The position numbers and the translations under genes are program-made. Below are positions 529-61,270 of a stretch of 64,000 bases of DNA, in pieces; position 1 is the stretch's first letter, and each line of letters starts with the position of its first letter. Origin of the DNA: Haliotis asinina (Eukaryota > Mollusca > Gastropoda > Lepetellida > Haliotidae); the NCBI RefSeq assembly GCF_037392515.1, contig NC_090282.1, positions 56,072,843-56,136,842 on the forward strand, read 5' to 3'. The notes below the pieces were generated by a model, which saw only the letters and a list, made by a program, of their open reading frames with translations, made no database searches and was not told where the DNA came from.

Positions 529-2940
529 GCTTTCGTCATCAAAGCAGTGACAGAAAAGATAGAGAAGAAAGATGACATACACCCTGATGATGGTCCCTGC
601 GATTTTGACATTGTCCTCGAACGAAAGGGGTTACCTGCACTTGGGTCCAGAGTGATACGAGGCCCTGACTGGAAGTATGGAGACCAGGATGTTTTAGGAC
701 CTGGAACCATTGTCAATCATGCTAATGATCACCGTGAGAAACATTTATTACTTGGGACAGAATACGCCTTTGTTACTTGTTATCATTTGTTACTTGTTAT
801 CATTTGTTACTTGTTATCATTTGTTACTTGATACTGATTCATTAACACATGCCCATGATATAGTCTGAATAATACTATCGACTTTAGCTCTCAGTAGTTT
901 AGTAGGATTTCTGTTGCTGAGAGTTTTGTAGGACGATGATGAGCAATTACATACAATAATGTTGTTATACGTAGTAGCTTATAACCACTCACGTCATCAG
1001 GACATGTGTAAACTCAACCTGGTCAGGTACAGCATCCAAGATACACCAGTGACAATACGTAAATTCCAACAATGAGAATGTTCCAGAAGTGATGCTATAT
1101 GTATTCATCTTTTCAGAGTTTTTGTGGGTACGTTGGGACCTTAACGACAGCAACTGCAGGTATAGATATGGATATGAAGAACAATTCGATGTTCTCCTAG
1201 TCGACAACTCCCGACACCTGGCAGCAAATGAACTGATTGAGATTGGTGTCAAGGTCAAGAGGGGTATGTCCTATATGGCTTGCGTTGTTCATGTCTTAGC
1301 ATATCGTGATACTTTTTGGATGTATTTTGTCGTGAATACCCCTGACGCAGGTAAGACGGTAAATACACGACCGAGAATGTGTAGTATTAATGCCTTGGTG
1401 GGCGTATTCTCAGAGTCATAAGTCATACGGATCCAGACATTTACGAATCTTGTAGGGTCTCTTGTGATGTCCTGTTGACAACCGTTGTCTTACATTTTAG
1501 TCTATTTGCAGGAACTGACTGGTCATATGGAAATCAAGATGGTGGTCCTGGTGGCTCTGGGGTGGTCATACGAAAACGGAAGGACGGGAGAGTGAAAGTA
1601 AAATATAACACCGATGAATGATAAAATATAACCGAATTTTCCTGCACACAAAAAAAACATTGATAAGTATTACACTTTCACCGTAAGAGGATTATCTGGT
1701 ATACTGAAAGAGAATTTCCCATGATTTGACAGTTTGACAGTTATGTACTTTCAGGTGAGATGGGACAACGGTCACATCAACTCCTACAATTTCGGATGCC
1801 ATGGGAAATTTGATCTCGAAATCAAGTAAGGCCCGTGATGACACAAAGTCAGTATTTTGGTGCAGAATACTATTTACTACCAACCTTGGTTGTTTGCCGA
1901 GACAGATTACACGGAACAGAAAAAGCAAAATGAGTGACAAGTGATGAAAGTCAGATCAGTGGATCATATTTACTTAGTGATAGCGTGCACACACGTGATT
2001 AAAAAATCTTATCACAGTGCATGATAGGGTAGCCATACACAGATGTGCATCTAATGCATTTAGCTCGGACCTGTTCCAGTTTTCATTGTCTCTCCTCTTT
2101 TCTCATCATCCACATGTTAACATTCTTTACAGTTCGGAAGAAGACGAATTATTTGCGGTTTTAGCAGCATCATTGGAAGAAACAACATCTCCTTCGGGCG
2201 TTCGAGGTGAGTTATGAATATTTGATCGTACGATTTGGATGTTTTTATAGTGATATTTGGGTGATGAACAAACGTGTTTTTTTATAGATGAAGAAGTCAA
2301 GGGAACCGTGCAGACAGAAGACAGACCACACATAGTCTGGCAATGGAGAGACGATAGTGGCATCTGGAGACTGTACACACAGAAGCAGATAGATAAGCTA
2401 GAGAGGGATTACAGTCGAACAAATGCCAGGTCTTGCGTTCTTCAGAAAGGGGATCAGAGGTAAATATGAAATTATTGCGGAAAACACATTGGAAAAGAAT
2501 CTTCTGTAAATAATTCAATGATTGTTAGTGCACCTGTTCAGCTATTTCGGAAACGCGCTTCCATGCGTCTTCTAAAAGTGCGGAAACGTTTCTGTAAATA
2601 ACAGTAAATGTGCTTCTGTACATATGTAATCATATGTAATTTTCATTTTCAGTTTTCGTATCACATTCAAAGAACCGATGTCACAGAAGTCATCCAACGA
2701 TGGAAGAAGATGTGATGTTCAAAGACTCGGTGAGCAGTTTTATTCCACATAAGAAATCTTAGACAAATAACTCATAGAATGGCTTCTATTCCTTGAAAAC
2801 TGTTTTGATTTCATGATTAATTTTCTTGTTTACATTTCTGTGCAGCTGTGAGTACCGAGGACCTAGACCAGCTAATCTCTCAAACATCAGCTGCAGAAGA
2901 CGTGGGATGGATGTGGGCGGACAAGTACTATGTACATTAG
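529..2940 (+). CDS. Paralog A, 3' part: MIB/HERC2 x2 + WWE protein
   Basis: Seen: exons 529-733, 1117-1263, 1512-1597, 1755-1825, 2133-2206, 2288-2459, 2653-2729 and 2846-2940 join in frame (309 codons including the TAG stop). The first exon holds the MIB/HERC2 signature LGSRVIRGPDWKYGDQD, completed by FLWVRWD and YRYGYEEQFDV in the next. Exons 3-4 (TDWSYGNQDGGPG, VRWDNGHINSYNFG) form the second MIB/HERC2 domain. Exon 6 (VWQWRDDSGIWRLYTQ, KLERDY) plus exon 7 (SFRITFKE) form a WWE domain. Exon 8 adds a 31-residue acidic tail rich in Asp/Glu/Trp that B, D and E lack. The N-terminal domain, coiled coil and vWA exons should lie left of position 1; none is visible in 1-528. Exon phases match paralogs B to E. 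Known: MIB/HERC2 domains occur in Mind bomb and HERC2; WWE domains bind ADP-ribose chains in E3 ligases and PARPs. Inferred role: adaptor in ubiquitin/ADP-ribose signalling. Confidence 0.88.
772..833 (+). repeat. 17-bp tandem repeat, about 3.5 copies
   Basis: The unit ttacttgttatcatttg is repeated head to tail inside the first visible intron of paralog A. Near-perfect copies suggest recent slippage. Confidence 0.85.
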
Positions 2941-3017
2941 AGGCTGTTGAGAATGTGCATATCGTGAACTAAAGAGCAGCTGTATATAGTATATTTATAT
3001 ATTTGTATCAGTGGTGA

Positions 3018-3180
3018 CTATGTTCTGAATTGTGCAGTAACTTTATACTGATTGGATACGTACATGCTCGGAATTGTACAGTAGTTGTATACTGAATGGA
3101 TATGTATCTTTTTAGAACTGTACAGTAGTTGTATACTGACTGGGTACACACAAGTTCGGAATTGTATAGAGACTGTATAC
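3018..3180 (+). repeat. About 55-bp tandem repeat, 3-4 copies, in the presumed 3' UTR of A
   Basis: Repeated pattern of gaattgtacagtagttgtat, actgaatgg, then atacgtac or similar, just after the stop of paralog A and before a polyadenylation signal. Copies are imperfect. Confidence 0.7.
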
Positions 3181-3230
3181 GTCGTCAGCTGAAGAGTAGT
3201 TTTACTCACACTTCTTCTGAACATGTTCTG

Positions 3231-3236
3231 AATAAA
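3231..3236 (+). terminator. Candidate polyadenylation signal AATAAA for paralog A
   Basis: AATAAA lies 290 nt after the TAG stop at 2938-2940. A second AATAAA is near 3429. Placement fits a short 3' UTR; transcript data would decide. Confidence 0.5.
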
Positions 3237-4550: not shown

Positions 4551-4823
4551 AATGAGTGAGTAAGTGAGTGAGGTTAGCTTTACGCCGCAATCAGCAATAT
4601 CACAGCTATATGGTGGCGGTCTGTAAATAATCGAGTCTGGACCAGACGATCCATTGATCAACAACATTAGCACCGATCTGCGCAATTGGGAACCGATGAC
4701 ATGTGTCAACCAAGTCAATGAGCCTGACCACCCGATCCCGTCAGTCGCCTCTTACGACAAGCATAGTCGCCTTTTATGGCAAGCATGGGTTGCTGAAGGC
4801 CTATTATATCCCGGGACTTTCAC
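4551..4823 (-). repeat. Abalone-type interspersed repeat, near full length
   Basis: Starts with a gagtgagtaagtgagtgag tail and ends at cccgggacttt, the reverse of the copy at 6598-6866. About 273 bp. Confidence 0.88.
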
Positions 4824-9151: not shown

Positions 9152-12100
9152 TTATGTTTTATAATACTCATAATATGTACGTTTACTGCCATGACAGGAG
9201 GATTCAGGAATCGTACCCAGATATCGTTTTCTGATATGTGCTGTCCTCTTCTTGCTCACTGATCTCTCGGTGTTTGTTTTGAAGGAAACTCGGAAGCTAT
9301 AAAGAACATGGACACAGAGATATATGTCAGTAGGTGAGTTTAATCTTACGCTGAATTCAGCAATATTCCAGCTATATGGTGGCGGGGTGTAAATAAACGA
9401 GTCTGGACCAGACAATCCAGTGATCAACACCATGAGCATCGGTCTGCGCAATTGGGAACCGATGCCATGTGACAATCAAATCACCGAGCCTGACCACCCA
9501 ATTCTGTTACGACAAACTGAAGGCCAATATTCTAATCCGGACCTACACGGGTCTCCAAGATAGAGGTGTTAAGGGATGTGTTTGTCAAGAGCGGATTGAA
9601 ACTGGATTAGTGTTTATTACACTTGGTGCTGTTGGTGAAATATATTCCTCAGTCGCTTTTACCGAAACACTTATTGTACTTAACGTACATTATGCATTTT
9701 CCCGATGTATCCTAAAACATGTTCCATATTTGGTTTCGTCTAAATATTACACATATCAGTAATTACAGGTTCCAAGAGGGTCTGCTTGTTTAATACCTTT
9801 CACCATTTCTTGTTAGTAGACATGAACCAGTTCTCCGTTTCTCATACTCCTTCTTTAACGTGCTGTCTTCCTCCTCCGAGTAATTGTGCCATGTGGCCCC
9901 ATCATCACTTCTCTGCCACACATATTGTGTAGTCGGTTTATCTTCATCCCCTCCGTTTACTGAAACATCGTGACGTCAACACTACCACACTCATTTTTGG
10001 CTCTCGTCTTGTATTAAACGATCATGACATGAAAGTTAATATTCGTTACTATGATAAACGTGACACACGCTTAAAACGACCAGACAACCTCGTCGAAATA
10101 CACATGATATGGACAAAAGATCGAATATAACGTTTCATAGCTGACCCATTTTCTATCGTGTAAGTTTGCAGGGGTAAATAGTTAAAACCAAGAATAGTTT
10201 TCACAGTTTTACTCCGGCATGACAAGCTAATACTGCAAACGGTAGGTGCCCTTGTCATGCGCACATGTGTGGCGCTTATGACCGCTTGATAAACGTAATA
10301 CAACCTTGCTTAGCTAGAAAATGACAAATGTTGATCAACTGCCACTGAATACTGCTTACCTTGACCAGTGGAACACGGAGGACCGTTCGTTTCCGGAACC
10401 TGCACTGTCTGGCATGAGAATGGGTCTCTGAAAGGATCATTTTACCAGTCAGTGTTGTTAGAAGAAAAACAAAATGTATTATTTGTTTCATTAAGAGCAG
10501 TGTGGTTACGCTGTCACTGTAGCCAGTCCCATGATTCCCTACCTTTGCTTCAGTTCGAATTTGTTGTTTTCCCCATAGTTGTAGTCAAACGTATCCCCAT
10601 TTTCCCAACGAACCTGTGAAAAAAGAGAACGGATACTGTGTGCAACCATGTTAAGTGAAATATTAAATATCGAAATTGAACATGACATTTGTATTTGGTC
10701 GATCCAGATATACATTCATATATTTGTAAATAGAGTAGGTTTTACCTTCACTTTGTGGCCTCTCTTACGTATGACGGTACCCACACTTCCGGGTCCACCA
10801 TCTTGATCTTGATAGGCGTCCTGCCAGTGCGGTCCTGAAACAGTTCGATTGCAGCTGTATCATTGTTTTTCTCAGTATAATGGAGAAACGGGAAATAACG
10901 TGGAATTCAAAATTATTGCAAAGAGAGATTTTTCGTGCGCTCTTTCGTGTTATTGATGGAATATGTAATTGCTTAAAGCGGACTAAAACCATACTCACAC
11001 AGTCATAGATCGATTCACTGCCAGATGGTCTATCAACTAGGCCACGGAGGAGGTTGAATATACAAATATGCCAAGCTCTGGCTTGGTTCACCTGCTACAC
11101 ACCTCTTTCTACCTGGACACCGATTGTGATTTGTCCATACTCCATTACACGCGGTAGATAGTCTGCTATTAGGACATCAAAGCCATTTTCCCCGCCGTAC
11201 CTGTAAACATTTCTGCCCCCATTGTCCCACTGGACCCACAGAGAATCTGCAAAGCATGAAACATTTATTCTACATTACACTATTGTAAACTAAGAAGGTT
11301 TACACGGATTCTTTGAAAAGACCTCAAAGAATCCAAAGTTATAATATGTCATACACCCTTGCCTGTCTCATGAGATATTTTAATTTCACGTCCTTATTCA
11401 CACTAACGCACTTAAATAACCGGCGAAAATGTACAAACATTCCTACAGTAATCTGCGCACCTGCTGATTGTCCATGGTTGATCACAGTTCCCGGACCGTC
11501 AGCGTCTTGATTTCCCCATTTCCAATCAGGACCCCGTTCTACCCTTGTTCCAAGAGGCGGAAGATTACCGCATTCGATGACGTTGCTGAAGTCGTCTGTG
11601 GCACCTAAATCAACCTCCACACTGCAGAGTTGTTCTCTAACAATGGCTTCAACCTCGTCCTTGAAAATTACAAACACACGTATAATGTTCGCAGCTACCT
11701 TGAACGTAGTGTCAAACATTCCCGGTAACATTACGTCAAAATTGCTGTCAAAGATGGAAAATGGTTACCTTATCTTCTGCTGATATATCATGAGTCATGG
11801 CATCAATGATGGCATCAACTTTGTTGTGCAACGTGGACGGATCAATATCTTCACTTTTCACAATCGTGAGTACACTGCCGCTGAGTCTCTGTGAACCGAA
11901 CCAGGATATATAAATCTCACAGACATCCGATTTCCAGTGTATGAGTGTATCTACCATGTGTGTTGCTGCAAGGTTAATCCATATAGGTGGAATATTGCTG
12001 AGTGGGGAGGAAAACTAACCTCATTCTCTCACCATGTTGAATAGGTATCCACAAAACAACCAAGAAATATCCTCAGCACCTTATGAGATTGTTTGTTCAC

Positions 12101-15100
12101 ATTGCCAACCCTTCTTGTTGGAATCATCGACTTACCCTGATATGTTGGTATCTACAGAGTCTTTTCACATCGGTCTTTTCCACAAATTCGCCTTTGCAAA
12201 GTGCGGAAATGGATTCAAGGAAATTCTGCAATATTAAGAGCATACACATGTACCCAGTGTGAATATTAAGACAGTAATGTTTGTAAAGAACAATAGCATA
12301 TCAAACATAACACAGGAAGGGTACACTGACCTCTCAGACAACTCTCTTCCATTGGGTAAACAACCCGAACTACGTTCAAATGGATGACAGAATGCAGAAA
12401 GTAAAAACCTTACCCTATCCGCATTCCCTACAGGAATCCACACGATCGGTCCGGCCACAGCACATTTGAAACCTTCATTTCCTAAGTCACTAATTGAGGA
12501 TATCACACATATCTTGGCCTGTCGTGAGAAAAAAACATAAATGCAATCACGATAAGCACATTGTTTCAAAAAATTCTGTCTTAAAATGTTAAAAGATGAT
12601 AGCTGTGATATGGTCTTTGAGCGTGTAATGAGCCCTGCTTCATGATCTGAACTAAACGACTGTTCAGTTATTTATGAAATATATAACCCGTATGTCAGTG
12701 TATACCTGCTCAGATGGACGCGTTCCGTCTTCTGCGTACCCCTGGCCTTCTACTGTAGCCAAACCATCAGTGAGGAAAATTATTCTTGGAGTCGTTTTTA
12801 TTCCGCCAAAATTGCAAATTCCACCTTTAAGAAACATAAAAGTTTAGTACATTACTGTCCAATGTCATTTAGACCAGATAACAGTTCTACAAGTGCACGT
12901 TCTTATGGCAGACGATGACAAGAGTAAAGCATACTAGTGAGTGCTCTGATCTGTATGTGATCCTAACATGAACAAAGTGCATGCAACTGCTCGCATTCCC
13001 ATGAGGAGGGAAGCAGTAGAATTGATCATCAGCAACCCACGTTGAGTCTATTAACGCGTCGGGTGGTCAGGCCCTCTGACTTGGGTGATCACATATCGTA
13101 TTCCAAATGCAAAGATCGAAGCTTACGCTGTTAATCACTAGATTGTCTGACCCAGACCGCCTCCATATAGCTGGAGCATTGCTGGTATTGGCGGTAAACA
13201 ACTACAAAAACTGAGGGAGGACATATCAATCATTGCTCCCATTACTGTACAATACAGCTATTAGCGGATGCTTTCTATGGGGAGACGAGCCGGTGTCACT
13301 TACTCCTGATAAGACAAGACAAGGCTACAACGAGACCTTGGAGAAGAGGAGTTGTCCCGTGTGCTTCCAGTCCGTCTGTAAAGTATAACAAACGACACGT
13401 TCTTTCAGAGAGAGTAGAGCATGCAGGTTATAAAATCTCAGTGAAGTTAAATGTACTGAATTATGACCTCAATGACCTCAGTGACGAGAAACGTTATTGG
13501 TGTTACTTGTCACATTACCAGATAAATGATAGCAGTTGCAGTATGTAAAAGCAGTAAATTGCCTAATGCATTCTATCTGACAGTGTAGAGATTGTTACAC
13601 TGTTTTCGTTTGTTCTGATATATGCCATAAACCATATCCCATTAACATATCGCACTGACGTTCACGTACCTATACATTCCCGCAAAGATTCATAGTCATT
13701 TGTCAGGTGATGGGCAATTCTTGCCGTGCCTCCAAATGTAACAAGAGCTACGTTTTCCTCAATGGAGTGTTGTTCTGCTATGTCCTCAATTCCTGTTTCA
13801 AAATATACAAGATTTAGATGATTTAGACACCTACCTGTTAAAATGCCACAACGATATGAAATCTCATTATCTTTCTTATATGTATTCATATATGACTACA
13901 TTTGTGTTAAATGTGTAGGGATGAGTTTTCTGTTGATAAATTCCAGTCACATCAAAACTTTTATATGCATACCATCGATGAGTTCTCGAGCAGTTTTCTT
14001 AAGTTCTTTTATTGCATCCCCGCTCATACTGCCGGACGTGTCGAGGCAAAGAACAGTATCTAACCCAAGAGCTTTTGGAATGCCTTCAGAATCACCTGCT
14101 GTAATGAACAACATACACGACCAGTGCAGCTCACTAAAGTCCGCAGTTCATATTGATGTAATACGGTTCGAATACACACAAAAACCTGTTGTAAGAAATA
14201 GCCATGCAAAGTATCACTTAACGCATTTACAAGTGATTATAATGAGCTACAATAGTTATTTCATCACAGACGTTCATAACGTGAATAAACTAGATAGAAT
14301 ATTTAAGGGGACTCCGAAACATAACATGTAAACACAGCATTGTAAAGTCAACCTACTCGGTAACTACCACGTATCTTGAGAATAATGTATTACATATTTT
14401 ACATCACTGACATCAAAATAACAGGGTTCCTGAAATAAGAGCATGATCTCACACATACCACTAGCCACTGCCTCTTCATATGCACCCATCATTCCATCCC
14501 AAAATGCAGTTGCGCCAGGAATGTTTTCAAGGATACTCCGATATTCTGTCATCTGTCGCATGTTCTCGGTGACGAGATCCATTACAGATGTCCCTTCCTT
14601 AGTCACGGAAGTACTAAATCTTCCCCTGGATATAGTCAGAAACAAGTTTATGACACTCAGAATAAGCTACTAGCCGCATGGAAATGGAAAGTTTTGACTT
14701 AAACAGACATATAGATTATCTACTAATTTACACTAATACTTTCACGTTATACACAGTCCAGAATTATGTCACAGTTATTATTTCAATGTACACACCCCTT
14801 GGCCAATTTCGACAACTGCTCCCTAAAATCGCGTCTCATTGTGGTTGTCATTCTCTGCAAATCAGTAACATCATGGACATTCAAAGATGCCAGTCCTGGG
14901 ATTAGATTCCGCATTTCTTGACAAGACAGTCCAGAACTGGAATTGCTCCCTTGGGGGTATTTCTTAGCATGTTGTTTAACGTTTGTCGGTTTCTTTCGAC
15001 TGTTCTCAGCTGAAGTGCCATTCGCAAACGTATCCGTTTCTAGTTGCCTTTTCATACCACCGTCTTTCCCTACTGATGGTGTGTGTGTCTGAGCATTTTC

Positions 15101-16943
15101 AGTAGGCCTGCATGCTATTTCAGGTTTTGGTTCCGTATTTGTATCCCTGAGATTGCCTTGTGGAAGTTTTGATGCTACACCATGTTCTTTGGGTCTGACA
15201 GATCTGTCAAGATTCAACAATTCTTCTTGATTATCTGTGTCTCTGGTGTCGTCGTCATCTTCGTGTTCGTTGTCTGCTGATAAAGTACCCATGTGTATGA
15301 TGCTCCCCATTCCTCCTGCGGGGCCAGACCCAGGACTCATGTCTCTTTCACTACAGTTCAGACCAAGAACGCTGTCGTGCTTTGTGACATTGTGATTCAC
15401 TGCGCCACCGCGGTTTTCACCCCCTTCATGAGCCATCTCCTCAACGGACGACGTGCTACCTTCGATAAAGTCTAAGACACGTGCTAATGTGGCTTTAATG
15501 TGATTGATTTGCTCCCTGTGAGCAGAGTCATGCTTTTTCAATAGTTGTCTCTGGCGTGATATTTCCTTCTCTATCAATGCAAATCTTTCTGGAAATGATT
15601 GTAGTTGTGCCAATGGAGTACCCGGTGAACTACAGAATCAGATATACATCAGTATTAGTATAACAAGCGCCAAACACCACAAGTGTTAACATTATTGATA
15701 CAAAATAGTATATGTTGTCCTGAAAAACAAATAGTGTAACTTGCTATATGTCACATACATAGCTATACGAAGTAGATAAAGATTCTTTGATATAGGGTCA
15801 ACCTTAAAGGATGCATCATTTACAAATGACCATCACAATAATATATATGGCATACTGGTCTAATGGGCAAAAGCCCGGGATATTCACTCACAACACTTAC
15901 CTTTCAGCTAGTCCATGACGTTTATCTTCACTCTGATTGAAACCGTGAAAGAATGTGTTACAGGGCACCGTGTACTGACCTTCTGATTTCAATGTTACGT
16001 TGATGTCTGACTTCAATGATGAAACACAGCTAGATACAAACTTTCCTAGCAGTCTGACAAAGTCATCTGACCTCTCGAGAAAAGGTGTTCCTCTCGGATG
16101 CCGAAAAGTAAAATGCATGGGCGAGGACCTCACTGCAACCAGTCTAACTTTCATTGTTTCATAAACTTCACTGACAAAAGTGTACAGATATTCCTTTTCC
16201 TGAATGACTCGTCTGCAGAACTCGTCTTCAACAGAACTGTTGTTTCTCGTTTGTTTTAACTCAACTGTTGACATCACCAATTCCTCAGGCTCCTCCCAGT
16301 GCAGACATGCTAGTAGTGTCCCTGTTCAGAAGGATCACATGAGAGTACAAGCACCAAATTGCCGTGTTTGCAGAAACGTGAGAAAACAGGATGACAGTGA
16401 TTGTGATTAACGCTCAAATGTCACATTATATAACACGTTGTCAATTAGGGGACATGTAAAACACAATTTCTTATGTTTGTTTGTTGTTTAACTCCACTTT
16501 CAGCAATATTCTGGTAATGGCAGTTGTCTGAAAATAATCCACAGTATTTGTTCATCATGTTGACAGTCATGTCTTATTTATACCTGCAGTTTTATTTACT
16601 TTCTTTCCCATCTAATTAACAGCACAACGACAGCTGATTAATTCTCATACGTTTCAGTAATGTATTTGTCAATTTCTTATGCTTTTGTTAAAAGAAAGCG
16701 TTACATTAAAAAGCGACACTACTAAATGCTATTTTCAGTGAAATAAGGGTTCACACATATTTTTATTCATTAAAATGAACTGGGATTGATGAAAAGCGTT
16801 ATAGCTTATCTAAGCACCGCTCCAGTACAACATATAATACAACTCCATGACTGTGCACGACTGTATGTGATATGTGATACACCAACATGTACCTCGTTAT
16901 CTCATACATCTTATCTCTATCTCTCTATCTCTCCCTCCCGCTT

Positions 16944-16977
<34 letters not shown>

Positions 16978-18640: not shown

Positions 18641-18642
18641 AT

Positions 18643-46400: not shown

Positions 46401-49400
46401 TCTGGCGACTCTTACACTCTTTCGGGTATCGTTATAAGAACTTTTCGGGTAAGAGTAGGTCAGTACTCTGTAACCCCCTGATATCGTTCCCTTGAGAAAT
46501 AAGTTCCTCAGGGTAACAAAGAAGAAGAGAGAGGAAGGGTTGGAGCCAGAGTAGTGGGACGAGACGTGGGTCAATCCTCGCACACTGCCAGTTGTCAGTT
46601 GGTTCCCGGTTCGGAGTTATAAGGGGTCACGTAGAAAGCTGTCTCTATGGAAAGGAGAGAGACTAATCATCCCAAGCTGGTTGCTCCAGTAAAGGCTGCG
46701 ACTTGGTATTCTGGCCTAAGTCCATAGATAACATAGACTACTATTCCGAGAGGAACAGTGCGGTTTTCCTCGATTGGGTTAAAAACAAGTTGGTACCAGT
46801 CCTCCCAGAGATGTCTTTCATCGTAATGGACAATGCCACATACCACAGCGTGCAGGACCCCGACAGTATAGCCCCGACAGTGAACAGTCGACACGGTGAT
46901 ATGATATCATGGCTGGACAATTTCAGATCGTACGGCCTTCAAAGGCAACGAAGCCTCAGCTGAAAACCCACACACCTTTCTACAAAGTTACATAAAAAGT
47001 AAGAGTCACGATATTCTGCGACTTCCACACTATCACCGTGACCTTAAACCCATCAACTGATATGGGGCATTGTCAAAGGATATGTAACCAGATCAAACAC
47101 AACTTTTAGATTACGTGACGTAGAGGTTTTGGTTAAGGAATCCCTTGACAAGATCATTCCTGAAACTTGGCAAAACTGTGTCAACAAGGTAGTTAATGTT
47201 ACTGGTCTCGGGATGGCTTACAACAGGCAACTGTGGCACCACTTGCCATCCCTTTAAGTCGTGACACTAGGACAGAAGAGGAACCGACAGGTCTCCCGGA
47301 ATTTGAGATGTTCCCCAGCCATGACTGGCTGTTCCGTTTCTGCGACAGATTACAACTTTTGCGTTTTCAATGCTAGCTTCTTAAACGTTTTTCATGGAGT
47401 TCGGAAAATGTTCAAATATCAGAAAGCTGGTGCGTATTAGTAAATGATAAACATGTGTACTATTTATATGTACGTGGCAAGTTTGTACGATGATAAAATT
47501 GCAGTTCATCGGTCCGTTTCTGACCCAACTAGGCTGTAGCTTGGACGGCCTTCTTGCTTGGCTCCGTCACCATCTTTGTTTCGCCTAGCTACGCCTTGCA
47601 GCTTGGCTTTAAAACATATTGCCGGTACTCCGTCTCGACTTCGCGTCGCTGGTTTAAAGTCCTATGCTCTACCATCACACCACCGAGACTGCTGATGTCT
47701 GTTATGTCTCAGTGCTCGGAACTTTGGGTCTAGGCTGGCCAGCTCAGTGGGACGTCGAAGGATGTCTCTGGCGCGACTCTTGCTATGTTTAAGAGATGCT
47801 GGCCGGGAGGCGTTTTTCCCATCAATAAGTTAACCGTATTTGTGGCAAAACCGTCATCGTAATACTACTGATGACTAAAGTGATCGGGTTCTCATGCTAG
47901 CTGACTTGGTCGATGCATCTCATCGTAATCCAAATGCATACACATAGATGTATGCTCATGATGTCAATCACTGTATTATTTGGTCCAGTCTCAGTGACTG
48001 TTGTCATATACCTGAGGCCCGTTTTAGACAGTTAACAAACGAAAATAATGAAACCGAAATATTACCGAAAACAGCTAAACTCAGTCATTTACCGAACTTC
48101 AAAGTGATAATGCACAGACTAACCTCAACCTCAGTAACGATGGTTTGTGAGATTCACATCCCTCGTGCGTTGGTGGGTCCGGCAAATGCGACAGTAACTT
48201 GATTTTGATATCGAGTTTCCCTGGGCCATGTTGCTCTGACATAAGTTGCCTGAACACACTCCTCAGTTGTAAGCCATTATTTAACATGGACTTAAAGTCT
48301 TCACGAGTAGCATGTCTCATGACGAAGGTGACGGGACACAAAGTCACTGACAGCACTCTTGCCCGAAACACCTTCAACATGTTCGTCACGAAATGAGACA
48401 TAGTTCCATTCGCTGATTTCAAGATGTGCGTGATTCTGCCTATAGTGGCCGCCACGTTATCAGAATCATGTGTTGAGAGTGTAATAGCGGAGAACACACT
48501 TTTACCACGGGCGTCAGTTTCCCAGTTGACCCACAAAAGGGTTTCCTGTTCTGAAACACATAATAATTTTCACGTGTTTATATTTTCACATGAATCCAAA
48601 AGCTGTCAACGTCTACACGGCTACTAGATAGATTTTCATGCATCTGTATGGATCTATGCCTAGAATGGGTTGTGAATGTGATTACAGTGGAATCTGTAAA
48701 ATCTGCACTTTTCTATATAATCTAGATATTATAATATAGAATTATTTTCTGAGTCCGCGCAAAACTGCTTTTCATTTATCATGAAAGTGTGTTTTATAAT
48801 CCGGACTCTCTCAATTACGGAATACAGACTTAAATACAGACAGTCCCGGCAATCAATTTGCTGTGAGAACAATGCTTTGTCATCCGGACGTAGCTGACGA
48901 AAACAACATTCTCGACAGTCAGCTTGCTTTGAGAACAATGCTTTGTAATCCGGTTGCAGCTTACTAAAAAAACAATGCCGACTATCAACTTGCAACGAAC
49001 AATGCTTTGTAATCCGGACGTAGCTGACTGAAATAAGAGTCCGTTCATTAAACATCTCTGTTACGTCTGTTCACAGTGGTTACTGGCTGAAAAGATACGT
49101 GGAAATTTACAGAGGCAGAAGGAAATCGTGTTGACAGACTCTGGCAATGAACGTTAACATAGTGTATTGAGAATATTTTTTTTTAAAAAAAGAAAAAAAA
49201 TTGCTGGTTGTAAAAAAGGGAGGTAATTCATCGTAGAGGTGTCTTCAGTAATGGACAAAAGAGTCGCTCCAAGGCCAGTTCGTAAAGGACAGATGCTACT
49301 GTATTTTCAAAGGTCAGTTCTTGAGACGACAACGCATATAGTTAATTCTGTCAAAGAGGTCATAGACCCATAGGACAATGCAGTTGAAAATATAAAAAAA

Positions 49401-49776
49401 ATGTTTTACAATAAACACTAGTCCAGAAACAGAACAGATATGCATGTTGATATGCACAAGGCATATTAATGAATACAGTTTACTACTGTTACAATTGTGT
49501 ATGTTATGTACCATAAAGTTTAAAAGCAAACACATATATTCCACTTACAAATACTTCTATTTATCTACTTATATTCACTCTTACTGGTCTATATATTAAA
49601 CCCTAAAGTATGGAGACTTACATAGAATGTCGATCTTGATAGTTACCTTTGGGGGTTTCTCCACGTTCAGTTCGTTGGACTAAATCTTCATTGAAAATGA
49701 TATCAACCACTTCTCGATTGTCACTTGAATGAACCATCTTCCCAGCCTTGTACTTTCGTAGGTAAATGTCTGCCAT
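34407..49776 (-). CDS. Paralog D: NTD - coiled coil - vWA - MIB/HERC2 x2 - WWE, complete
   Basis: Eighteen exons from ATG 49776: 49776-49647, 48550-48124, 45121-43871, 43607-43468, 42765-42643, 42158-42036, 41666-41589, 41384-41281, 41110-41003, 39609-39526, 39356-39237, 38916-38709, 38474-38328, 37984-37896, 36483-36413, 36313-36267, 35247-35082, 34485-34407. Exact open frame, 1164 residues. N-terminal domain (MADIYLRKYKAGK; LLWVNWETD); exon 3 has a coiled coil (KRFSRIYEEVVKQKQFLEK) and a long polar region whose end is rich in Tyr/Asn/Pro/Ser and looks prion-like; helical exon with SVWESAEEAL; vWA with LDVSSST and VTDG; MIB/HERC2 pair (GTRVARGPDWKWENED, VLWDNDLSNTYRYG; YTDQDGGP, VLWKNGDIFEYRFG); WWE (YTWQWLDPQGVWQTYSLEQ, SFRVSFR). 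The stop codon lies inside a consensus donor (TG|GTAAGT), so a longer splice form is possible. It is divergent from E, with 2.2 kb between starts. Confidence 0.91.
34777..34994 (+). repeat. Abalone-type interspersed repeat, moderately diverged, in the last intron of D
   Basis: Has ggtcaggctcgctgacttgg, gtccagactcgattgta and a ccctcactcactcg tail. Confidence 0.85.
35399..35484. mobile_element. 86-bp MITE-like palindrome with perfect 16-bp inverted ends
   Basis: ctgattttccaacaca at the left is exactly inverted at the right (tgtgttggaaaatcag). It lies in the D intron before the WWE exon. The tgttggaaaa core also begins the long inverted-repeat element at 6060-8738, so the two may share a transposase source. 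Confidence 0.7.
35972..36118 (-). repeat. tRNA-derived SINE, best copy
   Basis: Minus strand has tgtggttaaaccgttggc (A-box position) and ggggtttgattccc (B-box-like), then a body ending gctaaaagcggcgtgaaag. This polymerase III promoter layout is typical of tRNA-derived SINEs. In an intron of D. Confidence 0.78.
36706..37692 (-). repeat. 1 kb minisatellite, 43-bp unit, in a D intron
   Basis: About 22 copies of a unit reading (plus strand) acttacattaccaaacactt, ttactctgaacattaacggg, aac. The first half shows a three-unit (129 bp) higher-order pattern set by aacatt/atcatt and gggaac/gggaag variants; the second half is a homogeneous variant with aacagcaac. On the gene's sense strand most units carry GTAAGT or GTAAGA, the core of a splice donor. 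It separates the two exons of the second MIB/HERC2 domain (37896-37984 and 36413-36483). Confidence 0.95.
37846..37890 (+). repeat. Short (ACGC/AAGC) low-complexity tract
   Basis: cgtacgcacgcacgcaagca with similar following units, directly after (5' of, on the plus strand) the donor side of the D exon 37896-37984. Confidence 0.7.
39750..39925 (+). repeat. Abalone-type interspersed repeat, degenerate, in a D intron
   Basis: gttgtcaggctcgctgattc, acacatgtcactgtatccc and gatagctgaagtattgctc occur in family order. Confidence 0.7.
42480..42555 (-). repeat. tRNA-derived SINE fragment
   Basis: cccatgttgggaattaaacc tgaacctt matches the B-box side of the SINE at 35972-36118. In a D intron. Confidence 0.45.
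43771..43823 (+). repeat. (CA)n microsatellite
   Basis: Imperfect cacacacaca tract of about 50 bp in the D intron after the coiled-coil exon. Confidence 0.9.
45430..45500 (-). repeat. Abalone-type interspersed repeat, 5' fragment
   Basis: ggtcgcctcttctgacaagc followed by tgaagatcag and tcccgggtcttg match the reversed 5' end of the family. Located in the D intron upstream of the coiled-coil exon. Confidence 0.6.
45972..47530 (+). mobile_element. Decayed Tc1/mariner-superfamily DNA transposon (DDE_3-type)
   Basis: Inverted ends of about 30 bp (ggttgggtcagaaacggacc gatgaa, 45972-46002) recur inverted at 47499-47530. Inside, 46067-46351 encodes an N-terminal helix-turn-helix-like segment (VKQLMIKVYDLFRAE). 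About 46630-46680 has a GKGERLII-like string, 46703-46963 holds the catalytic DDE motif region VMDNATYHS, and about 47020-47200 matches the ILRLPHYHRDLKPIN / PETWQNCVN region. The pieces lie in different frames with internal stops, so the copy is dead. GC-rich flanks outside the inverted ends (about 45800-45970 and 47530-47610) also resemble each other in inverted orientation, so true ends may lie further out. It sits in the D intron between the N-terminal domain and the coiled-coil exon. Confidence 0.82.
47874..48015 (+). repeat. Abalone-type interspersed repeat fragment
   Basis: gatcgggttctcatgctagc tgacttgg and a later tatttggtccag match the family. In the same D intron as the Tc1/mariner relic. 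Confidence 0.5.
48835..49035 (-). repeat. ~60-bp tandem repeat, 3 copies, in the first coding intron of D
   Basis: gaacaatgctttgtaatccg followed by gacgtagctgac recurs three times with drift. Open frames across it are repeat artefacts. Confidence 0.8.
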
Positions 49777-51978: not shown

Positions 51979-54900
51979 ATGGAGGAACCCAGTGATGTTG
52001 TCTCTACTCTACATTTCCGTCACTTTGGACCAGACAATGTCTATAATGGAAGCAGGAACTGCTGTTCAGTCGTTGACATCTGCACAAACAATGACGTTGC
52101 CTTACAACACAATGGTAGGCGCCACATCCCTCATGTTGCTACAACCCCGTGAAGATTCGGGTTAGAATTGATATTCAGTAACCCGGCCTGTCGTAGGAGG
52201 CTACAAACAGGAGTGGGTAGACAGCCTCGCTGGCTTCATAGACACGTGACACCATATCCTAACTGCGTATGCTGTTGATCACTGGATTGTCTGCACCAGA
52301 GTAGATCGTTTACAGTCAGTCGACATATAGCTGAAATTTTGCGGCGTAGAACTAAATTCATTCTCTCGTGTTGCTACTCTGTATACAAACACCAATGGCA
52401 AAATGAATATTAATTGCTGAATATTAATTGCTGAATAGTAATTGCTGAATATTAATTGCTGAATAGTAATTGCTGAATAGTAATTGCTGAATAGTAATTG
52501 CTGAATAGTAATTGCTGAATAGTAATTACATGAAAAGGAACAAGTTATATACATCGACGACTTAAAAAAGCTTACTGTAGTTAATGTCTCTGCAACTGGA
52601 CGTTGCCAGTCCATGTAACAGATCATACCAACTTCTAAAATGCCAGCTACTGTATACTACAAGCAAAAAAACGGGAACACCCGAAACTGTGATAGTCCTA
52701 TATAATATATTTATACTCATGGATATATGCAACTTTTTAAGTGTTTGATGGGCACTTTAAGCGAACAGGCAGTGAAGCAACTGATTCAATATTCGTTGTG
52801 TTTGAGTGAAACGTAACATTGTCAAAATCTTTCATATGTCTATTTTCTGTTGTATCCTACCAGCGCTTACCTAGGGCTAATGACGAAAATGTGCGTACAC
52901 AAACACATGCAGTTTGTAATACTTCATAATGTTTCAGAATGCATGCAGCTCCTTCACTTGCACTGGGAGGACACCGATATTAAGAGTGAGGTGTCCAGTA
53001 TTACAGTGTCAGAAGCAAATGCTGACCAGAAATCAACAGTCATAACCCCCGACCGTGTTAACAACCTCCTCAAGGATCAGACAGCGTTACATGACTTTAT
53101 CAGAAAGATGCTTACGGCACACCAGGTTCAGCTGATCCACATGGAATACGCGCCACTTGTTCTGACCTTCCAACACTGTGGGGGTTCAGACAGGAACATG
53201 CTCTTGCGTGAGAAGTTCAAGGTTTTCATAATCGTGAAAGAATTCGTTCTGAAGGCCACAGGGTTACAGGATTTAAAGGGATTGCACATCGGTATTCATA
53301 AATCAAAAAGTGTTTCAATGGAGACCAGTCTTTGGTGTCGGTATTTCCACAGGGTTTATAGGGATGTTTCAGCACAAAGAAGGTGGAAGTCAGCTAGGTA
53401 AGCGATATGATAGGTCAGTGACCAAGTTAGTAAGATGGGGAACGCCGCGCCCACGTCGTGTCATTTTAACGTCGAAGGAAGTCCCAAAGTACTGAGGTCG
53501 AAAGTAGTTGATTACCCACGAGCAGGGATATTACACTGTTTACTGAACAGGGTTTTTAGTCAGGATGAATTGTCTTGTCATGACAAATAATGTTTATGCC
53601 TTTGTATTCATACGTGTGAGACATATACATTGTAAGATATAGGTCCAAGCAAATTCATATGTAACTGTACAAAAATAACTCAAATGCGAATACACATTTA
53701 TGAAAACGCCACATTATGTAAGGTCCTTAACATGTGTATCCACACAACCCTCACTAATGAGTATATTCGTTTACGTACACGAACAGGTCTTCATCAGAAG
53801 ATGATGCTACTTCGATCGCCATGCCTCCCCGAATAGACAGGAGATTTATCAGTATTGAAGACGAACTGTTTAAACAAAGGCAGTTCATGGAGTCACAGTT
53901 CATCGATCAGGACCAGCAATATGAAAATATACGTGCCTCACTTATGAAAATCTCACAGGCCTTCACAAACGACAGAAGGCAACCTCTCGAACCTTTGGCC
54001 TCAGAGGATAATAATGAGCTTAATCCAGTCAGAAATCTCATTGAATTTGATCTGGACCCCCTTGAAGATGCTTCGTCGCTTCATTCGGCCAAAGGAACAG
54101 CATACCGTCCAGAAATAGAAATACTTAGCGATGATGATGATGAGGAGGAGGGGGAAGAGAAGGAGGAAGAAGAGGAGGAGGAGGGGGAGGAGAAGGCGGA
54201 GGAGGAGAAGCAGGAGGGGGAGGAGAAGGAGGGGGAGGTGATGGGGAAGGAGAAGGAAGAGGACCATGATGGCGATGATCGGAAGGTGGGGAAAGATGAG
54301 GAAAAGCTACAGGCGAGATGTTCGGCGGCTAGGGAAATAGGTGACGTAAGTATTGGAAGTAAAGAGGAAAGAGAACATAGAAAAATAGAATCAGACCAGG
54401 ACCTCCGTGATGACGTATTGCCTAATGCATCGGATGCTGCAGGATCAAACCACACTGAGGATGAGCATGACGAGTTGGAGTACAGGCAAAATAGACCAAC
54501 TGGAGAAAGACCTGTTCTTCAACAAAAACGACAGTTTACCGATTTCAGAAGTGACACCAATGTTTATAATCAAAATCGTGACTCGCTGGTCAGAAGCACA
54601 GAGAACAATGAATTTCCGGAAACAGTGGGTGACATGTATGCCGTCAGGAAGCAAACATACGAAAGGTCATATTCCCACAAGACATCTTACCAGACCACCG
54701 GAAACAGAAGTCGATCTGCACATGGACATGCTTCCATTGCACAGTGCAGATCAGTTTACAGAGAACAACAAGCAAGACGGCAGCCGAAAAGTGGGGTTGC
54801 AGATGCCTCTGATGAAGCAATGAATTATCTTGAGGACTTGCTATATAGCTATTACTACACCCCTTCACAACAGAATGCTTATTCTGATATGCAATCAGAT

Positions 54901-57900
54901 GCAGTAAATATCCAGCCCCCATACGCACCAACACCTCTCACGTGGTAAGGGTTGACTGAAATGTACCACTATATACGAAATACATCACTTTCCTAAAAAA
55001 GTAGGCATCTTAAGTTACAATTATTAATACGTATATTTCTTGCATATTCATTCATTATCGAAATTGAGAACATTTATCCCTGAATGTCATGCAAGTCCTG
55101 AACCAGACGAAGCATGACCTTATTCAGTGCTTGACCAAACCTGTTATATTACTTGTCAGCGAAGAACCGAAAAAGGAGAAGATCGAAGGAAATGAAACGA
55201 AACGACAAGCTTTGCGTTTAATGATTGAATGTGCGATTGGAATCAGCCCACACTCGAGCAGAATATGGGAAAGTGCTGAAGAAGCATTGCTAGAAGGTAA
55301 GTTCTGCTGTTGAGGTGAAATTGTATTGTCAGTTATATTTTATATGAATCAAGGTTTGTATCTGCAACAAGCTACAGTTCTGTCAGTGTATTAGGATGTG
55401 ATCATATTATTATCTGTATCACTTCGTTTACTGCATGCGTTGCTTCATACATAGTACAACAAGATAAATTAAAAATTAAATTAAAAATGTCAGGTCACCT
55501 GCAGCTGCTACTAGTGAATTAGTCCGAAAGTCCAGCTTGGCGAAATCCGCTTTGGATTAAATCCTTCCTCTTGGATATGTTGTCGTAGGTCTGGATAATC
55601 CATTGCGCAAGTAGTGGTTTGACAATACTGGTACACGTGCACAGAGCTTTCTGAGTAGCTGACTGGCCGAGCGCGTCACGGGTCGAGGTCACATAGGTCA
55701 ATGATTTCTTACGCAAATCTCAACATGGATTCTTCAGTGCTCCATTGCGTGTCTCAATGTAGCGGAAGGCCCATGTTTCCCCAGCTAATTAGGCAGGTGA
55801 CAGGACGACAGCTAGGGTCAGTGTTTTCTGTACAGTTTACAGTTACCTGTGTTATACTCTCGTGATTTCTGTACTTTGATGATGCGCGAAAATTAAACCG
55901 CGCGAATAAGTCAAATTTTCTGTTTCCGCAAAAATTAAGCCGCGCGAAAATAAATGATTTTACAGTACATGGATGCATTGAAGGGGTAATTGTTTCAGAG
56001 AAATGTCCTGCTCCAAGACATGATCTTGCCCTCGATACTGTCATATGCTTGGACACATCTGGTAGCATGCGCGGGGAAGCCTTCCAAGAAATGAAGAAAA
56101 TCACTCTTGATTTTATAAATGGTAATATCTTCAACATATTTTATCATGTGCATGTAATAGCTGCTATCAGACCATTGTTTTGAAGGCGTGCATACATTGT
56201 CAAGAAGATACCAGGGACACGTAGATGCTAATAATGACACACTGTGAGGGCATAACTATTTTTGACAATAGTAAAAACTGATGTCAGTGTTACTCTTCAA
56301 TCATTACGGTATTTTAACAAGGAAGACACAGTTGTAGAAGGTGCTATGCTTATTGTGTTTTCAACTGTCTTTCTTACTGTTTTGAATCTGTAACAAATTG
56401 CTTGTCTGGAACTATATGCACTGTGGGGCAAGAATGTTGAAGTCACAAATATCATTTCCATATTCCCAGGAATCGAGGACATTGCAGAACAACATGACGT
56501 TGAAGAGAATATTGCCCTCGTCATTTTCGGAGGTCGGGCCAAAGTGATCCATCATTTATCCAATGACTATGGAAGCCTCCGAGACACTCTAGGTATATCC
56601 TGTTATGCATCTTGCATCATATATTACCGTCATTTCAGCTCGAAATCTATAAACATTGTATGTGTTGGACTTAATCATGTTTATGTTTGAATGTATTCTT
56701 TATGAACCTGGTTTAAGGCTGACATCATGATTTGTCTGCATTGTGTCCATAGAGAAAATCACGCCGGGAGGTCCCTCACCGATACATGAAGGCCTTGTTG
56801 TCTCCATGGCAGCACTTGCGAAAGGTATGTCATTTCCCCCGTTCTTATTTCATCTGTGTCTCTGGCACTTGTAACTGCACTGTTTAATTAGAACGGCTGA
56901 ATCTCCGTGATGATTCCATGTAATGACTTAGTTTGTCGTAAGACCAGACAAGTGCAGTCTAGCTGGTTTCATATGTTACCTAGGTGATTGTGTACCATCG
57001 TGTCCCGACTGAGACACCAGTATCGGTTTTGTTTAGCCAGGACAGGAGGAGGATTATGTAAGATTACATACCTACCTACCTACCTACCTACCTACCTACC
57101 TACCTACCTACCTACCTACCTACCTACCTACCTACCTACCAAACTTCGACATAGTTTGTGAAGAATTTCACTGTAGGTCCGTTGGAGAAAGATGTAGGTA
57201 AATGCAGTATTAATTTGAGATGGTTTCATGTTGTAAAAGGTGGCACCTACAGAGTGAACAATCGAATGGAGCTTCGACCGCGAATGATATTCCTGACCGA
57301 CGGCAAGCCTACAGCTGAGTTGCCTGAAACTGCCAATGACAGCCACTGGCTCAGTATTCAGGTGCAAAAACAACGTTTTCAAACCGTCACAGTCCTTTCC
57401 ATACGGATGGCATATGTTTACTTGATTAACTATGATCCTTATAGGAAATGAATACTTAATGTGATACTCAAACAGCCCTATATGTTCTGATTACATTGTA
57501 AACTTCACGTTGGCATATATGAATACGCCTAACGCTATCCATTCCACAGGAACAAACTAGGATTATACTGGCGTTCAGAGAGATCAGAAGTAGACAGCCA
57601 AGTGACGATCTACCTGATGAAATTATTTTTGTTCCAGTAGGGCACTCCTGTGATAGGGTAAATGTTCCATCATCAACTCTACATTTGTTTAATACTATTG
57701 TATCCATATCCGTGTGATGTAGCCGATATTCATAGTGGAACGACTATATTCATGCTGGAAAGTCTGTGATATGTCATCTTTTGTCGATTGTTGATATTTC
57801 AAATCCAGCAATACATTAACAGGCTATTAAGACTAAATCGAGAGCTAAAATACATCTGTCATAAATACCATAATGTTGTTCATAGACTTATATAGTTCGT

Positions 57901-60900
57901 TTGGTTCCATTTTTAGAACTGCCTTGAAACCCTGGCAGCAGCATGTGATGGCAAAGTGAAAAATGCTGGATCCTTTGCCGAGCTGTCGAAGTTTCATTAC
58001 TTGCGCGTAAGCAATTGTCCTTTGTCCGTTTCCAATGTTGTCTTTGTCTCTAAATATTGAAAGCACACATCCCGTCTCTATTTCAACTTTGTAATACAAT
58101 AGCATCCATGGTGTGAAACAAATACTATACAAGCGATATTGAACCGTGTTAAATGTTCTTTCTGTTTTGTGTTGTGTTGTGTTGTGTTGTTAAAGATGTA
58201 TGTGTATTAGTGATTTGATTTTGTTCTTACTCGCAGAAAGTTGCCGTTCAAGCCATCGAATACGCCAGCCACAAAGGGAATGAGACTGACATATTTGTGG
58301 CAGGGTTGCGTTCTTTGTTTTCGAATCTTGGACCCGGCATCGACAGGGCTAGCACGGTCAGTGTCTCTTTCACATGCATGCAATGTGTATTATTAGGTGA
58401 ATATTTGCCGTACATGTTCGTGTGTTTGTGACAGGTGCCACTGTGGGATTTTGAGACGTTCGCTTTTCGTGGACAATTGGAATCATCAGTATTTGACCTT
58501 GCTTCATCAACACACATTTGACCATGTCGGAAAGGTGCATTGAATATCAGGTCAATTGACGTCGATTTTCTCTGGAGATTTCTCAATATCGAGGATTGGC
58601 ATATATTATGTCTTCCATTTCACTAAACATGCATCGTTTTATGGCCTGTTTCAGATGGAAATTTACAAGGTGATCCAGGCGTATCTGACGTCAGTATGGA
58701 ATGACATCAACGAGGAACCGGGTCTGCCTCCCCTGGGGACAAGAGTGGTCAGAGGACCAGATTGGGAGTGGGGCAATCAGGACACAGAAGGGCCAGGAAC
58801 CATCTACAACCACGCCAAGCAAAGTAATAACAATTATCTAAATTTCATGATTTAATCATGTTTTATTTGTCACAACGTTTATATCTGCAGTTCTGGTTAG
58901 AGTGACTTTTCATATCTAATGCGACAAGATCATAGTTTAGGAGACTAGCAGGGATGATCAATATTAGATCAATAGTAGGGAGTTATCACTAGTTTTAAGA
59001 TGACTATGTTCGCGTCATTGTGTATTTTCGTGTGAAGGTGGAACTGCTGGAGATATTGAGGTTACTCTGAATCAGTACATATGAGTCTAAAGCTTACTGC
59101 AAACAAATACGTATACCTATTATATGTGTTGCTTTTCTTCAGGTATAGTTTCGGTGATCTGGGATAACGGCCATTCCAACTACTACAGATATGGCCATGA
59201 TGGAAAATATGACGTCACTGTGGTGGAAGACCAGCCTCGGGTTCTCAGCGGAAACCTTGTGGCAGTAGGAGTACAGGTCGTAAGAGGTCAGATTTGGCAA
59301 GAAACTTTCCTTATTAATTCTCGTGCCCTCTTGTGATTTCCATGCCCTCAATGCGTTAGGTTAAACAGCTACATGAGGATTGAGTGAGTATGTTGTACAC
59401 CGCCTAGGGCAGTGTTCCAGCAATATTACGGCGGAGGTCATCTGAAGTGTACCCATGTGAAGAATCGCACCCAGACCTTCGTCGTGACGAGTGAACCTTT
59501 AACCACTAGGCTACCCCACAGCCCGCTACATTAGGAGCGTTAGTACCCGTTTTGATCAACTATGCAGTTATTCACAATTTCATCTTACATTCATTTTAAA
59601 CATGTTTGTGATTACATCTATGAAGGTCCTGGGTGGCATCGCCTATACGACAATCAAGATGGTGGACATGGCAGCTATGGTACCGTCATTCGTGTGACAG
59701 AACCTGGGAAAGTCAAGGTGATTCATACTAGTTACTGACAGTGTTTTCAAAAGAATAAATTATTAGCCATACATCTGGTCTTCTGTTGGAAACATTGACA
59801 AAAAGCCAGACTTGCATTTTTTGCTGTTCAGTATATATGAAATCAAACTAATAATTTTTACAGGTTCGATGGCAGAATGGTGAAATCAACGACTACAGAT
59901 ATGGAATATGTGGCATGGTGGATATTGCTATTCGGTGAGTTTGTCGAATGTAACATCACAAAGTGACTTACAGGTGTTAATATTAATATCTATGTAGCAT
60001 AAAAGGCAATATTAATGCATAGGTTTCTGTGGCTCAAGTACACCACCCAGTTCCCTCAAAGATGTTTCCTGCTGTAGAAATAGCAATGGGAGATGAGTAA
60101 GCAAATAAGATGCAAAGTCCGATTGGCATGTCTTTGAAAATATGCAATTTCCATGAAGGAATAACTGTTTTGTAGTGACCCAATTGCTTGTATCCTGGAA
60201 ACAACTGCGAAGACAAATCCTCACATGGATACTTATCAAGGTAAATATGCTTACGTGCTTTGACATGAACATTATCAGTTCTTCATTGGTCACGAGGGGG
60301 CATGAGTTGATGTACCATCGGTGTTTATGTTCCCTGAGCCCGAGGGATCAGGGAACACCTCAATGTTAATTTTGAACTGTTTGAAGCATGGGTATTGGAT
60401 CGCACACTTCAGCCAACCTGAATGTTTCTTTTCCACAAGTATTGTCTCAGTAAAGTCGCTGCGGTGTAATTCCCTTGCTTAATATTCACAGGGACTACAT
60501 TTGAAAGTTTTGTCAAAATTTACGTTTTAGAATGTGAGGCAAATCTTTTCGTAGCCATATTTAAGGCAAGAAAAACAGACTTACAGTTATATCCCTTCCA
60601 TGGATTTGCATTCGCAAAACAACAGTAGTTTCCGTTCATCATGCGTGATTCAATGTTACTTGAGATAAAGAAGTACTAAAGAAGTAGAGAATGAGTTGCC
60701 ATTGGCAGCAGGGTACATTGAAATGTACCTCGCTTGTAAGTGGAGTATATTGAAAATAATAGAAGAGGCAATCAGAAGACGGCATTTATGTGTGAGGTAA
60801 GATAAGATGCAGTATAGATTAGTTGGTTTGGCATTTATTTCACATTTGACAACCAACTTTAAGCATCTAGCTGTCGTGGCAGGCAGCTATTTATGGCATT

Positions 60901-61270
60901 ATACAAAGAATGTGTTATGTTCGTATCATTCAATTGATTAGACACTGCAGAGGCCAAGTCAAGCAAAGATGGAGACAGACCCTACATATGGCAGAGGGAG
61001 GACAAACAGAATGGCTGGGAGCCATATTCTGAAGCCAATGATGCCAAACTGAAGAAGGCCTATGGTAAAAATCCCACGGGTTCATGTCTGGTCCAAAGAA
61101 ATAAAGAGAGGTATGTGACATACTTCGATTCAGTTTCAACTGTAGTTGATTAACCCTCGCTACACTTATATGCATGCGTTTGCTACAGTTTCAGGGTGTC
61201 TTTCAAGTCTCTACAGGAACGGTCATTGGCTGATAAATCATGGGTTCCAGTACGAAAATATTTTCAGTAA
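51979..61270 (+). CDS. Paralog E: NTD - coiled coil - vWA - MIB/HERC2 x2 - WWE, complete
   Basis: Eighteen exons from ATG 51979: 51979-52114, 52938-53397, 53787-54944, 55160-55296, 55999-56121, 56470-56592, 56753-56824, 57240-57361, 57550-57657, 57917-58006, 58237-58356, 58655-58823, 59143-59286, 59626-59717, 59864-59934, 60176-60240, 60942-61110, 61189-61270. Exact open frame, 1146 residues. N-terminal domain (LLHLHWED; HMEYAPLVLTFQH); exon 3 has a coiled coil (RRFISIEDELFKQRQFMES) then about 55 residues of nearly pure Glu/Lys/Asp (54125-54300); helical exon IWESAEEALLEG; vWA with LDTSGSM, a PGGPSP loop and LTDG; VIFVPVG-type end; helical linker; MIB/HERC2 pair (GTRVVRGPDWEWGNQD, VIWDNGHSNYYRYG; YDNQDGGHG, VRWQNGEINDYRYG); WWE (YIWQREDKQNGWEPYSEAND, SFRVSFK). 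Intron phases equal those of B and D at all 17 positions. The start follows an acceptor, so a 5' non-coding exon is likely. No signal peptide or membrane segment. Confidence 0.92.
52145..52365 (+). repeat. Abalone-type interspersed repeat, diverged, in the first coding intron of E
   Basis: ccccgtgaagattcgggtta, gttgatcactggattgtctg and cgacatatagctgaaat follow family order. Confidence 0.8.
52407..52527 (+). repeat. 14-bp tandem repeat, ~9 copies
   Basis: Unit attaattgctgaat and its variant agtaattgctgaat, head to tail, in the first coding intron of E. Confidence 0.95.
55850..55975. repeat. Short cgcgaaaattaa repeat, possible MITE
   Basis: Two related blocks, gcgcgaaaattaaaccgcgc g and cgcaaaaattaagccgcgcg, just upstream of the first vWA exon of E. 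Similar cgcgaa-type short repeats are common in molluscs (from memory); ends not resolved. Confidence 0.4.
57068..57139 (+). repeat. (CCTA)18 tetranucleotide microsatellite
   Basis: Perfect cctacctacc array, about 72 bp, in an E intron within the vWA-coding region. Confidence 0.97.
58165..58190 (+). repeat. (GTGTT)n short tandem
   Basis: tgtgttgtgttgtgttgtgt in an E intron. Confidence 0.8.
59383..59523 (-). repeat. tRNA-derived SINE, diverged copy
   Basis: gcaatattacggcgga near its distal end and ttaaccactaggctacccc at the tRNA-like head match the copy at 35972-36118. In an E intron between the two MIB/HERC2 domains. Confidence 0.75.
60692..60767 (+). repeat. 76-bp segment shared with paralog C (22511-22590)
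   Basis: gagttgccattggcagcagg then tacctcgcttgtaagtggag, the same orientation relative to the gene as in C. It lies in the intron before the WWE exon. It is open on the sense strand (ELPLAAGYIEMYLACKW). Confidence 0.6.

Follow-up and report, generated by a model that had tools for sequence, protein, structure and literature searches.

Tandem genes combining vWA, paired MIB/HERC2 and WWE domains at one locus of the gastropod Haliotis asinina

Do the many similar exons in a stretch of the Haliotis asinina genome belong to one family of genes, and what might be the function of proteins in which a common N-terminal domain (NTD) precedes vWA, MIB/HERC2 and WWE domains? The window considered here is the whole 64,000-nucleotide stretch that was analysed, C3:56072843-56136842, within a genome of 1.143 Gb in 159 contigs. 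To the first part of the question the answer is plain: these exons form a real gene family, expanded at a single locus. The second part is approached below through what the copies keep, what they vary and which known proteins they resemble.

A gene family expanded at one locus

Self-comparison of the window by tblastn of its open reading frames (ORFs) recovers, among the matches listed, five paralogous regions with a common exon order, A on the forward strand, B, C and D on the reverse and E on the forward, and a splice-aware aligner written for the analysis places the same exons in C, D, E and A. The original prediction of five such paralogs is therefore correct for the window; as a count of the family it falls well short. 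Sixteen gene regions (G1-G7, A-E and H-K) are found in 256 kb (C3:55970001-56226000) by tblastn with four models, and a further copy at 56346001-56356000 runs from vWA through the second MIB domain in the same order. Searched against the whole genome by tblastn, the MIB-MIB-WWE part of E has at least 100 matches, at least 17 of them outside C3; the 17 listed non-C3 matches all end by query residue 134, short of the WWE part, and this family's WWE part matches at the array only, among the matches listed. Those on C3 span 55902028 to 56355617, about 454 kb of one chromosome, and by eye add four copies upstream of the 256 kb and three to four downstream (including the copy read at 56346001-56356000, and one that is a single weak exon match), with an array total of about 23-24 copies among the matches listed. 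Family searches of the genome agree: 8 of 25 WWE matches and 6 of 31 MIB_HERC2 matches fall on C3, all inside the array stretch, the remainder off C3 being other WWE and MIB genes.

As introns split the domains, unspliced exon pieces match VWA, MIB_HERC2 and WWE nearly all below curated cut-offs. Once spliced, the models of B, E and G4 (the last a paralog outside the window; all three scanned with Pfam without the first exon) place VWA, VWA_2, MIB_HERC2 and WWE above those cut-offs, with E-values for B, E and G4 respectively of 5.5e-14, 1.6e-12 and 3.2e-11 for VWA_2, 4.6e-23, 1e-26 and 5.3e-29 for MIB_HERC2, and 1.3e-6, 2.7e-6 and 2.8e-5 for WWE. These matches and the in-frame models bear out the predicted order of vWA, MIB/HERC2 and WWE behind a shared NTD, with one correction: each of the three proteins has two MIB_HERC2 stretches, rather than the single domain first proposed, the second of E being overlapped by a sub-threshold SH3-C_UBE2O match. 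The predicted lack of RING and HECT holds in the same scans, which returned no RING, HECT or ZZ match at E<=0.01 and no catalytic domain.

Gene E (51979..61270, forward strand) is open in frame from its ATG at 51979 to the stop at 61270, giving 1051 codons (1051 aa) over 18 exons under inferred splicing. Its first coding exon, with the ATG, lies at 51979..52114, followed by the NTD exon (52938..53382), a variable acidic middle that holds a coiled-coil-like segment (53787..54665), the vWA domain (55984..58006; exons 55984-56121, 56470-56592, 56753-56824, 57240-57361, 57550-57657 and 57917-58006), the two MIB/HERC2 domains (58594..59934; exons 58594-58823, 59143-59286, 59626-59717 and 59864-59934) and a final region, 60942..61270, with the WWE exon (60942-61110) and the last exon (61189-61270). 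The model is least secure at its linker exons 58304-58356 and 60176-60240.

Gene B (9152..16321, reverse strand) was modelled from NTD to stop: the NTD at 15901..16321, ferredoxin/RNA recognition motif (RRM)-like by prediction; a variable middle (14796..15629) with a conserved coiled-coil-like segment at its start; the vWA domain (12136..14095; exons 14095-13973, 13792-13670, 13375-13304, 12824-12706, 12518-12414 and 12225-12136), within which the exon bearing the Thr position of the metal-ion-dependent adhesion site (MIDAS) was located between its neighbours; the first MIB/HERC2 domain (11103..11659; exons 11659-11461 and 11246-11103) and the second (10543..10834; exons 10834-10746 and 10613-10543); and the WWE exon (9797..9959), whose last strand and the C-terminus lie in 9296-9152. 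Without a linker exon the frame breaks ahead of WWE; including a short one between MIB2 and WWE (10427-10360, with a weak acceptor) repairs the phases and leaves the frame open from NTD to stop. Good candidates for this exon exist in A and D; those of B and E have low-scoring acceptors, and in C none of the candidates between MIB2 and WWE convinces.

The remaining three genes follow the same plan. Gene C (21309..29374, reverse strand; some linker exons not placed) has its NTD at 29374-28911, where the start is that of the alignment, its middle at 28564-27866, vWA at 27054-25236, a linker at 25029-24901, MIB1 at 24492-24261 and 24108-23962, MIB2 at 23300-23209 and 23061-22988, WWE at 22122-21960 and C-terminus at 21435-21309. 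In gene D (34407..49776, reverse strand), with insecure splices from NTD to vWA, a first exon at 49776-49647 precedes an NTD from 48550, a middle in the ORF 45180-43867, vWA at 42765-39526, a linker at 39356-39237, MIB1 at 38916-38709 and 38474-38328, MIB2 at 37984-37896 and 36483-36413, a short linker at 36313-36267, WWE at 35247-35082 and C-terminus at 34485-34407. Gene A (forward strand) is cut by the window start, its NTD and vWA lying upstream; the part inside, 545..2752, holds MIB1 (545-733 and 1117-1263), MIB2 (1512-1597 and 1755-1825), a linker (2133-2206), WWE (2288-2459) and C-terminus (2653-2752). Across the regions read, splice phases are compatible and exon order is kept, except at the vWA of K; one vWA-to-MIB1 linker of E and G4 is unlike that of the other copies.

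Constant and variable parts of the proteins

The diverging middles of the original prediction are evident between E and G4, which are 26% identical in the middle vs 66% in the vWA domain and 70% in the NTD; among all 16 copies the MIB-WWE part ranges from 35 to 71% identity, the WWE letters of C and D having been added from a separate search. The G6 model lacks WWE because the query ended early, and a WWE family match does lie at G6. The exons are under purifying selection: dS, the synonymous divergence, was finite in 6 of 12 comparisons, the other six being saturated (that of the G1/K vWA is meaningless, K having no vWA model), and where finite the ratio of nonsynonymous to synonymous divergence (dN/dS) ran from 0.12 to 0.38. 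For vWA it was 0.12 in E/G4 (dS 1.98), 0.12 in A/G3 (dS 2.31) and 0.17 in D/J (dS 3.01), and for MIB-WWE 0.21 in A/G3 (dS 1.36) and 0.38 in G1/K (dS 0.52); as four of these five lie at dS 1.4-3.0, near saturation, the ratios are rough. In the NTD of E/G4 dN was 0.21 and dS 0.69, a ratio of about 0.30. The five E-G4 DNA alignments of at least 60 bases all sit at exons, overrunning them by at most about 13 bases.

Over the NTD exon (E 52938-53382) the dS of this pair, 0.69, is below the 1.98 of its vWA exons, a difference that could reflect conversion or exchange.

A vWA domain is present in the models of 15 of the 16 copies, K being the exception. By eye, the MIDAS motif DxSxS is exact in 12 of the 15 and the last MIDAS Asp is kept in 14, the exception being H, whose model is doubtful there; the predicted metal-site motif is thus mostly kept. 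Where the vWA exons of K would be expected (C3:56219090-56222590), the letters look by eye like a retroelement.

Upstream of the NTD, several copies carry a separate first coding exon, with a short motif common to the ORFs there; a profile trained on six of these ORFs also matches G7 (6.6e-7) and I (2.7e-5), both outside the training set. Of the seven genes examined closely, six (E, D, J, G4, G5 and G6) have a donor in phase 1 that fits an NTD acceptor in phase 2. Several of the six contain other candidate splice sites, and G5 and G6 have a less obvious start codon. In G7 no donor of the first exon scores >0, and first coding exons of B and C were looked for and not found.

The NTD profile, trained on seven copies, finds those and five more, 12 of 16 in all (not G1, G2, H or K), as well as a truncated copy; all 12 domains share one fully conserved Trp and one fully conserved His. 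AlphaFold2 models from four sequences (B with a predicted local distance difference test score, pLDDT, of 77 and a predicted template modelling score, pTM, of 0.71; D with 71 and 0.63) share their order of elements, and the domain is predicted to be ferredoxin/RRM-like with its first helix in two parts; no standout fold match was found for the predicted structures. The middle exon that follows opens, in the five genes used for training, with a segment whose pattern we interpret as coiled coil, and its profile extends to G2 (1.7e-9), H (1e-7) and weakly G6 (0.0085), without being significant in J. The truncated copy lies at C3:56195853-56198999 (L025 and L026); its larger DNA matches, at 64-91% identity, are with 5' and 3' portions of G7, and no vWA-MIB match was seen.

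Tandem repeat arrays lie in the window at 18642-19982 (unit of about 47 bases), 30981-32497 (about 78) and 36750-37686 (about 43), the third within an intron of gene D, and a dispersed repeat, perhaps a short mobile element, recurs in both orientations at about 4557-4751, 6588-6867, 9329-9508, 25465-25780, 34798-35017 and 61941-62090 (among the matches listed). Elsewhere in the genome, 17 of the 31 MIB_HERC2 matches lie at C16:12440865-44315859 (L001-L004 and L006-L008), where the loci opened look MIB2-type by eye and are perhaps a second expansion (six of eight other MIB loci were opened), and there are six Egg_lysin matches on C14 (C14:26671878-26918244), two with internal stops. Egg lysin is known from abalones and a few vetigastropods related to them, and the matches suggest a genome of that kind.

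A proposed role and its rivals

Our preferred reading, to which we give slightly less than an even chance, is that of an intracellular, ADP-ribose-reading adaptor family in defence or stress. The roughly two dozen tandem paralogs would encode adaptors or readers some 1000 residues long. After the short first exon come a ferredoxin/RRM-like NTD, a coiled-coil-like segment with the variable middle, vWA, a consecutive pair of MIB/HERC2 domains and WWE. Judged by their domain types, the proteins would act within cells: the sole solved relative matched by the vWA of B is that of magnesium chelatase (2.4e-4), an intracellular-type vWA. The coiled coil and NTD would assemble them into oligomers, the vWA and MIB pair would hold protein or peptide ligands, much as the MIB-ZZ-MIB region of MIB1 binds ligand tails in the portion of PMC11887331 available, and the WWE domain would bind ADP-ribose marks, WWE domains being described as ADP-ribose readers in the sections consulted of PMC9404506. 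Marked proteins might thereby be handed on to a partner, for example a ubiquitin ligase distinct from these proteins, or to a pathway of defence. As no RING or HECT was found, the proteins would be readers and not ligases, and the way the family has expanded, with middles that diverge, would fit sensors of innate immunity or stress.

Several observations weigh against this picture. An immune role for the array would be drawn by analogy alone. Not every WWE domain binds poly(ADP-ribose), that of DDHD2 being a counter-example in the same sections of PMC9404506. The MIDAS Thr position holds Thr in 2 of 15 vWA domains, Ser in 11 and neither in two (G2 and J; by eye), at least two copies, K and the truncated one, look damaged, and the evidence for selection is thinned by the saturated comparisons and rough ratios noted above.

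Among the rivals, the one that survives best, though unlikely, casts the proteins as competitors or substrate adaptors for Mind bomb- or Deltex-type ligases, in Notch-ligand or other ubiquitination, and not as sensors. MIB1 and DTX1 are indeed the closest solved relatives by sequence of the MIB pair (MIB1 6.3e-20, HECTD1 1.9e-11; profile of 5 of 16 copies) and of WWE (DTX1 3.7e-8, TRIP12 1.4e-4, HUWE1 0.019; profile of 11 of 16), and an adaptor would fit the absence of RING and HECT from B, E and G4; in our judgement, however, the size of the array and its range of MIB-WWE identity would be unusual for a core developmental regulator. We consider quite unlikely the reading of the NTD as a TRADD-N domain that has diverged strongly, with the array as a gastropod counterpart of the marine-invertebrate TRADD-N immune expansions (Kaur et al. 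2021). By layout only, TRADD-N would be a plausible relative of the predicted domain; membership by sequence-profile match is not supported by Pfam, genome profile searches or hhalign. No TRADD-N family is among the Pfam matches of the 12 NTDs at E<=10, TRADD-N models match other loci in the genome and not the array, and hhalign of the NTD against three local TRADD-N-like sequences, a thin comparison set, gave E 0.13 over 12 columns, where three control domains scored 0.23-0.63 and eight shuffles 0.53-0.90. A fold match to 1f3v was tied with many unrelated folds and was not among the 50 listed for the second model, and no death effector domain (DED) was noticed upstream of the NTD, no DED model having been applied. 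More doubtful again is the elaborated form, a gastropod innate-defence family in which the WWE reader and MIDAS vWA would gate an oligomeric, extremely diverged TRADD-N NTD, with ADP-ribosylation of host or invader proteins as the sensed signal. That the exons are several separate genes, or the array largely pseudogenes, is highly improbable: the truncated copy and the vWA position of K point to decay in some copies, and some whole-genome tblastn matches contain stops for which introns may account, but order is kept, phases are compatible, joins are in frame and dN/dS is well below 1.

Comparison with known systems

Mind bomb 1 and 2 resemble the array proteins in having two MIB/HERC2 domains, and MIB1, the best solved match, also has ankyrins and a RING; the array proteins differ in carrying vWA and WWE. 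In MIB1 a ZZ finger lies between the MIB domains (MZM, as described in the part of PMC11887331 available), whereas in B, E and G4 Pfam (without the first exon) found neither a ZZ between the two MIB domains nor a C-terminal RING. Deltex (DTX1), TRIP12, HUWE1 and the WWE-PARPs share the WWE domain and differ in being ligases or ADP-ribosyltransferases. The TRADD-N expansions of PMC8195603, as far as its available text describes them, are alike in their constant N-terminal alpha+beta domain, variable regions and large lineage-specific expansion, and include a vWA fusion in cnidarians; they differ in that TRADD-N models do not detect the array NTD, and the main text of that paper has 'WWE' and 'HERC2' nowhere and 'mib' three times as a word start. 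The bivalve Mib-herc2 orthogroup OG314 is likewise a mollusc expansion, with 15.1 genes per bivalve vs 0.4 in other molluscs in the accessible portion of PMC8382680; it is annotated as Mib-herc2 and protein ubiquitination, and 'WWE' and 'von Willebrand' do not occur in that main text.

The literature searched, mostly titles and abstract openings and covering few subscription papers, holds no description of a vWA-MIB-MIB-WWE architecture, and within that scope the domain order is new, inside a familiar kind of tandem expansion. The array opens a direct test of ADP-ribose reading by its WWE domains and of gene induction by infection or stress. If the architecture is new, it adds a non-catalytic mollusc protein family that links ADP-ribose reading to Mind-bomb-type peptide binding.
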